From assembly GCA_011322445.1 (NCBI GenBank), contig DRMV01000012.1:1-54487 (forward strand): a stretch of DNA of 54,487 bases, given 5' to 3'. How positions within the stretch are numbered: position 1 is the stretch's first letter; each line of letters starts with the position of its first letter. The position numbers and the translations under genes are program-made. Origin of the DNA: Chloroflexota bacterium. GTDB lineage: Bacteria; Chloroflexota; Anaerolineae; Anaerolineales; DRMV01. The notes beneath the pieces were generated by a model. It had not been told where the DNA came from, searched no databases, and saw nothing but the letters and a program-made list of their open reading frames with translations. This document shows, one piece after another, positions 2,288-36,069 of this stretch.

Positions 2288-2308
2288 TATTGTCTCGGCA
2301 ATGGCTCA

Positions 2309-2431
2309 GATCTCCCCTCCCCCCACGGAGCCTCGCTACCGCTCGGCTCCTTGCCCCCTTCCCCTCTTACTAAGAGGGGAAGAGGGCAGCCCTGGCAGCG
2401 CACCGCTGCCAGGGCGGGGGTTGGGGAGATC
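2309..2431. repeat. Structured miniature element (family 2), copy A
   Basis: A 123-bp element bounded by inverted ends that read GATCTCCCC on each strand. Inside, in order: a stem GGAGCC/GGCTCC, a palindrome CCCCTCTTACTAAGAGGGG, and a hairpin CCTGGCAGCG/CGCTGCCAGG. The second copy at 23518-23672 has the same ends and the same order of stems with different stem sequences. It fills most of the 307-bp gap 2253-2559; the remainder shows no gene. Confidence 0.6.
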
Positions 2432-2559
2432 AAGCAGCGAAGCCTTCACCCCTCCCTCGGATGCCGCCGGGCGGCAGGCCGACCACGAGCACGCCGCGCA
2501 CGCTGCCACAACACCCACAGGTTCGACAACCCACCCATCTAAACCCCCGGAGGTGAACC

Positions 2560-23438: not shown

Positions 23439-23737
23439 ATTTCACCGAGGCGCACGGATTTTCTGTGCTCCTTCTCTACTCGGCTGATTGACTGACAAAA
23501 CGCTGCCAGGCAGCCCAATCTCTCCTATCCCCCGATGAGCCTCGCTTGGCCTTCGACTTCGCTCAGGCCAGGCGCTCCGCTCATCTGCCCCCTTCCCTCC
23601 CTTGGCAAGGGAGGGAAGGGGGCGGCTTCAGCGACGCTGCAGCGTCGCTGAAAGCGGGGGTAGGGAGAGATCAAGCATGGAAACCAGAGCAATGAGATCT
23701 GTCAATCACCGATCTCCAATCGGTGCTAATCGGTGGA
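23439..23737. repeat. Composite miniature element (family 3 arms around family 2)
   Basis: The outer arms carry ATTTCACCGA (23439-23448) and GTGCTAATCGGTGGA (23723-23737), which match the ends of the element at 16554-16734. The family 2 element at 23518-23672 is nested inside. The right arm overlaps the end of hutH and supplies its TAG stop. This fills the 319-bp gap; no gene is seen in it. Confidence 0.5.
23518..23672. repeat. Structured miniature element (family 2), copy B
   Basis: About 155 bp with inverted ends ATCTCTCCTATCCCCC and GGGGGTAGGGAGAGAT. Inside: stems GATGAGC/GCTCATC with inner GGCCT/AGGCC, a palindrome CCCTCCCTTGGCAAGGGAGGG, and a hairpin CAGCGACGCT/AGCGTCGCTG. The order of stems matches copy A at 2309-2431 although the stem sequences differ. 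The first loop contains CTTCGACTTCGCTCAGG, the core of the family 4 repeats. Confidence 0.6.
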
Positions 23738-35963: not shown

Positions 35964-36046
35964 AGGGGTGCCGGGAGGTTGCTTCCGGCACCCCTAACCC
36001 ATATCCACCTCTGCACGCCGGGGGAACGGTTCGCCGCTCCCCCGGC
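35964..36046 (+). other. Tandem hairpins between livJ and livH
   Basis: AGGGGTGCCGG (35964-35974) pairs with CCGGCACCCCT (35985-35995), and GCCGGGGGA (36017-36025) pairs with TCCCCCGGC (36038-36046). Neither is followed by a T tract, so mRNA stabilisation or partial attenuation is more likely than full termination. Confidence 0.6.
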
Positions 36047-36069
36047 GGCGAGTGCAAGAGGGAGGCTTC

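Follow-up and report, generated by a model that had tools for sequence, protein, structure and literature searches.

The window, the 54,487-nucleotide stretch of DNA analysed here, is contig C12 of a 2.63 Mb genome whose relatives are Anaerolineales MAGs. Two palindromic elements, copies A and B, are each situated between co-directional genes in this window (Table 1). RNAfold predicts a common fold plan for the two, composed of an outer stem and three hairpin arms (-98.8 kcal/mol for copy A and -115.9 kcal/mol for copy B), with both outer stems taking the form GATCTCnCC-(2x2 mismatch)-CCCCC / GGGGG-(2x2)-GGGnGAGATC. Direct reading bears out the layout given in a preliminary description of this DNA, namely inverted ends of the GATCTC type, a GAGCCTCGCT arm, a CCC..GGG palindrome and a last hairpin before GGGGGT. 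A chance origin is disfavoured, as eight strong hairpins (score ≥11) are found in the window, four of them arms of A or B, while the same scan of two first-order Markov simulations returned one and none. Two adjoining G/C-rich hairpins at 35964-36047, AGGGGTGCCGGG..CCGGCACCCCT and CGCCGGGGGA..CTCCCCCGGCG, possibly represent a further element.

Table 1. Features of copies A and B and of their shells in the window
Feature	Positions	Strand	Basis
Copy A core, GATCTC-type palindromic element with three arms	2309..2431	+	fold, sequence, homologues
Copy A outer imperfect stem	2309-2324 / 2416-2431	+	fold, sequence
Copy A arm 1 (GGAGCCTCGCTACCGCTCGGCTCC)	2327..2350	+	fold
Copy A arm 2 (TGCCCCCTTCCCCTCTTACTAAGAGGGGAAGAGGGCA)	2352..2388	+	fold, hairpin scan
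Copy A arm 3 (GCCCTGGCAGCGCACCGCTGCCAGGGC)	2389..2415	+	fold, hairpin scan
Copy A left-shell remnant (TCTCGGCAATGGCTCA)	2293..2308	+	similarity to relatives extends to 2293; complete relatives in G003/G011
Copy A right-shell remnant (AAGCAGCGAAGCC)	2432..2444	+	similarity to relatives extends to ~2444-2450
Copy B core, plan as A, arm 1 enlarged by GGCCTTCGACTTCGCTCAGGCC palindrome	23517..23672	+	fold; match to glyS element
Copy B arm 1	23534..23585	+	fold
Copy B arm 2 (GCCCCCTTCCCTCCCTTGGCAAGGGAGGGAAGGGGGC)	23587..23623	+	fold, hairpin scan
Copy B arm 3 (TTCAGCGACGCTGCAGCGTCGCTGAA)	23627..23652	+	fold, hairpin scan
Left terminal inverted repeat of MITE shell 2 around copy B (CTGATTGACTGACAAAAC)	23484..23501	+	shell-2 set; ~10-bp target duplications in other copies
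Right terminal repeat of copy B shell, degenerate (GATCTGTCAATCACCG)	23696..23711	+	direct reading and shell-2 set

Within one Anaerolineales family, the core occurs in multiple copies and in many MAGs. Its exact end motif occurs in 77 stretches among 84,980 genomes, with about 70 in the MAGs of the Anaerolineales relatives and the remainder as scattered single matches, and a 321-bp query centred on one copy matched nine of 41 genomes, all belonging to one family. Approximately 110 candidate cores were extracted. Copy A has homologues at the level of ~87-88% identity (L258, L259 and L269); as a DNA query it matched nothing except itself, and its flanking genes gave no clear orthologous site in the relatives. 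Copy B is 85% identical over 106 bp (E=1.8e-27) to a core inserted in glyS.

The majority of intergenic cores are enclosed by MITE-like shells. The cloverleaf core is contained in at least three unrelated shells with terminal inverted repeats (TIRs), two of which, shells 1 and 2, join these with the target duplications expected of MITEs. Shell 1 spans about 250-320 bp, with ends TGCATTCTCAAAC..GTTGATTATGCA and 4-bp duplications that are mostly NTAR (CTAA, TTAG, TTAA), while shell 2 has ends CTGATTGACTGACAAA..TTTGTCAGTCAACCA and target duplications of ~10 bp, such as CTGACGCCGC and AAACGAGCGC. The third, shell A, surrounds the relatives of copy A and has TCCGAAAAA ends. Shells 1 and 2 share one core architecture, and each of them contains both main arm-3 types. 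Because several unrelated MITE shells contain the core, it is amplified by hitchhiking. The shell 2 around copy B has decayed, as has the copy's own target duplication, and copy A retains shell remnants only. The intergenic site of copy B (23484-23711) is an insertion hotspot, holding in the sister genome G003 (L238) an unrelated MITE with a GCCCTCACC..GGTGAGGGC core; with this other MITE at exactly that spot, G003 was ruled out as an empty site for copy B. Palindrome tips are landing sites for other elements. The arm-2 tip CCCTTACTAAGGG (TTACTAA) hosts nested elements in L072, L149, L180, L182, L185 and L190, those in L072 and L149 being shell 1.

Shell-less relatives of A and B are found in-frame in unrelated conserved genes, including essential housekeeping genes. 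One such core resides in glyS, the gene for the GlyRS beta subunit, whose orthologues carry a different palindrome in G003, G004 and G009, another core in G008, and none in G006 and G013. A single glyS position holds different palindrome families (GATCTC core or GTAGGGGCGAACGGCCGTTCGCCCCTAC) at L034, L218, L220, L221 and L230. Other in-frame cores, distributed over several genomes and leaving the host frames open, occur in uvrA, in gcvT-, maf-, hisC-, UvrD-, MenD- and Mfd-like genes, and in phosphotransferase genes; Pfam scans were run for glyS and uvrA, and the other host names were read from translations. Mfd-like orthologues exist with and without palindromes, and those of other genera lack the insert. 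The insert in the mfd-like gene (L355) was considered unique to the source genome, which is rejected, as G003 has an insert there too; other genomes are without it, but gave no exact junction. Likewise, no core-only insertion could be paired with a clean empty site whose junction was exact.

The preliminary description had held that the paired arms differ between copies while pairing is kept, and advised that copies be collected and tested for covariation. In an alignment of 36 cores, A and B included, 96.3% of cells are paired (93.3% when shuffled), 55 cells are double-changed against 14.0 when shuffled (none of 500 shuffles reached as high), and the covariation score is 0.130, compared with 0.071 when shuffled and 0.030-0.059 with partners slid by 1-3 columns, figures that are not probabilities since the copies are related. 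The pairing claim is thus supported above both kinds of control, with most of the covariation residing in arm 3, where one pair occurs as A-T, T-A, C-G and G-C. The accompanying proposal of compensatory change stands in that the covariation is real, but much of the difference between A and B is replacement of whole arms and not point-by-point compensation.

Broken stems, which had been named as a sign against a selected structure, predominate among the recent changes of resident copies. Rare single changes at stem pairs amount to 150 cells (44 G-T, 42 A-C and 64 other) versus 10 compensated doubles. The rare-variant rate of stems (0.0099) is only slightly below that of loops (0.0141) or shells (0.013-0.022), and arms have been deleted in L046, L074, L071 and L263. 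Given this predominance of pair-breaking changes and the occasional loss of arms, the structure can be described as kept between lineages and decaying in resident copies. Across copies, the core is less variable than its surroundings, with stem minor alleles at 5.7% versus 17-23% in shells. What maintains the structure seems to be the way in which the element is copied or mobilised. A and B are copies of a mobile palindrome family that keeps its folded shape while its sequence changes, and the contrast initially drawn with passive repeats was misplaced, for these repeats are mobile, lie in MITE shells with target duplications and occur in-frame in genes.

DUF559 (PF04480), which we take to be a Vsr-like PD-(D/E)XK nuclease, has nine strong matches in the family, all of them in long open frames. 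Vsr-like homing nucleases are known, and in an intein-like insert DUF559 occupies the usual place of the homing endonuclease. Pfam locates DUF559 within UvrA, MetH, an OMP-decarboxylase fusion and an MmeI-type enzyme, so that, as in homing elements, a nuclease domain lies in-frame in conserved hosts (UvrA, MetH and MmeI-type). The Vsr relation of a Caulobacter DUF559 protein has been supported (PMC12907096). The uvrA genes of G000, G003, G005, G006, G008 and G009 carry the domain in-frame at a common position, and peptides encoded by palindromes adjoin it in five of these six genomes, on both sides in G000, G003 and G008; the six cases may represent one ancestral insertion. At the uvrA-DUF559 loci (L354 at G000:C36:21100-24500, L361, L358, L375, L376 and L378), GATCTC palindromes bracket the domain wherever both sides are readable. 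G004, G011 and G012, incomplete MAGs with many cores, gave no DUF559 match.

In metH, an in-frame DUF559 is placed in the linker that joins the pterin-binding domain to the B12-binding domain (L373, L425, L433 and L440) in different Anaerolineae families, and the site used outside the family of A and B is the same linker as within it. A set of 20 loci selected for their long frames has DUF559 lying within MetH, several methylase types and intein-like inserts, the last including those in DNA methylase genes (N6_N4 methylases) at L435, L436, L439 and L442. Matches to Intein_splicing in L435, L439 and L442 are weak and below Pfam's cut-off. The uvrA, metH and MmeI-type inserts gave no intein-splicing match, and they terminate in DNA palindromes whose translation serves as a linker.

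DUF559 is present in 115 of 248 Anaerolineae genomes, just under half of the sample. At the 30 strongest loci, selected by E-value with palindromes ignored, hairpins scoring ≥11 were found in 27 of 60 flanks versus 6 of 120 control windows (p=2.6e-10). Both flanks share a common repeat at 27 of 51 DUF559 loci, versus 11 of 200 mismatched pairs (p=1.4e-11), three of the 51 being uvrA cases of possibly common ancestry. These flanking repeats are often in-frame inside the hosts (MetH, type II methylases, inteins). Across Anaerolineae, palindromes of this type lie on either side of DUF559 genes and domains. A search of the open-access literature found nothing on DUF559 in connection with mobility or palindromes.

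The explanation that we favour, at a probability of roughly one half, is that A and B represent solo copies of a palindrome mobile at the DNA level, which spreads with DUF559 homing-type nucleases and also hitchhikes in MITEs. The complete element would be palindrome-DUF559-palindrome, the palindrome having ends GATCTCnCC..CCCC / GGGG..GGnGAGATC, a conserved 2x2 mismatch in the outer stem and one to three arms. The mobilising role of DUF559 we infer. As the candidate nuclease, it would cut target genes or unoccupied alleles, and repair would copy the element in, in a homing-like manner; solo palindromes would be non-autonomous or excised derivatives. Stop-poor, G/C-rich palindromes would be tolerated because most insertions survive only in-frame. 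Palindromic symmetry might be restored between lineages by hairpin-templated repair, or only foldable copies might mobilise, with resident copies decaying afterwards. Because A and B sit in MITE shells, these recent copies may themselves owe nothing to DUF559. Palindromes are common in these genomes and could be permissive landing sites instead of part of the element. Tentatively, and with rather more doubt, a new class of Chloroflexota mobile element may be proposed, in which candidate DUF559 homing-type nucleases travel between paired palindromes, insert in-frame without intein splicing and leave solo palindromes that are amplified by MITEs.

The preliminary description had favoured a selected RNA, and a regulatory RNA or mRNA structure, such as a terminator, attenuator or stability element, would account for the very stable fold, the position of both window copies between co-directional genes and the covariation. 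RNA selection should favour G-U, yet G-T is not tolerated above A-C in the stems, either among the single-change cells given above or by states (37 versus 37); rare mismatches therefore reveal no wobble preference on one strand. At gathering thresholds, Rfam matched only a tRNA in the window, leaving A and B unmatched, and a terminator search returned nothing at copy A and, at copy B, a single weak 5-pair site that is unrelated. With copies inside ORFs as well, a selected RNA is very improbable, and identity as an ncRNA gene is rejected on the mismatch symmetry, the mostly pair-breaking changes and the deleted arms. Transposition as single-strand units, in the manner of REP/RAYT or IS200/IS605, would suit hairpins that carry a conserved mismatch close to the foot, the occurrence of solo and paired copies and the deletion-prone arms, with DUF559 genes merely landing in palindromes; the matching palindromes on DUF559 flanks are nonetheless far above control, and this account is improbable.

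A stronger competitor, though still an unlikely one, would have A and B as ordinary MITEs, non-autonomous IS derivatives moved by DDE transposases, with the palindromic interior a passive passenger and DUF559 unrelated. The clear TIRs and target duplications of shells 1 and 2, the length of 250-320 bp, the 20+ copies per genome and the nested insertions are all consistent with this. A passive passenger does not, however, sit easily with one core plan in unrelated shells and shell-less in genes, nor with pairing that covaries between lineages in a core less variable than its shells. The reading of A and B as solo copies of a palindrome spreading with DUF559 is preferred.

Two reviews describe the Rickettsia palindromic elements (RPEs) as structured repeats of ~100-150 bp, both intergenic and in-frame in many conserved genes, with at least one open frame (PMC2229807, PMC10969869). 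At keyword level, neither review names a nuclease for RPEs (PMC2229807, PMC10969869). The elements described here resemble RPEs as structured palindromic repeats of that size range that lie between genes as well as in-frame in conserved genes and are open in at least one frame, a likeness of behaviour and not of compared sequence. They differ in belonging to another phylum, in their Pro/Gly-rich peptide and multi-arm core, in palindromes that bracket a nuclease, and in their MITE shells. To our knowledge, there is no settled mechanism for the movement of in-frame palindromic elements, described in Rickettsia. RPE-like elements are here found in a phylum that is free-living, alongside a specific candidate enzyme, and, if the proposal is true, DUF559 would be a candidate mobiliser for RPE-like in-frame palindromes, this Pfam domain of unknown function would acquire a function in homing, and many palindromes of these genomes would be explained. 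The covarying stems would then reflect DNA mobility and not RNA function, which would be a caution for ncRNA discovery based on covariance.

MITEs, according to one of these reviews (PMC10969869), are likewise short, non-coding and of high copy number, and shells 1 and 2 share their TIRs and target duplications; the difference lies in a cloverleaf core that is common to unrelated shells and also occurs in genes by itself, with no TIRs. Homing endonucleases and inteins, especially Vsr-like ones, similarly place a nuclease domain in-frame in conserved hosts, and DUF559 is also found in intein-like inserts, but the uvrA, metH and MmeI-type inserts differ in their palindromic ends serving as linkers and in lacking an intein-splicing match. 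REP and REPIN sequences (PMC3116915, PMC3733652) are also palindromic and dispersed, with structure kept as sequence drifts, whereas the present elements are longer, multi-armed and often intragenic. As far as the open literature shows, no known system combines the features of RPEs, MITEs and homing elements; the closest in behaviour are the RPEs, with the shells corresponding to MITEs and DUF559 to homing endonucleases.
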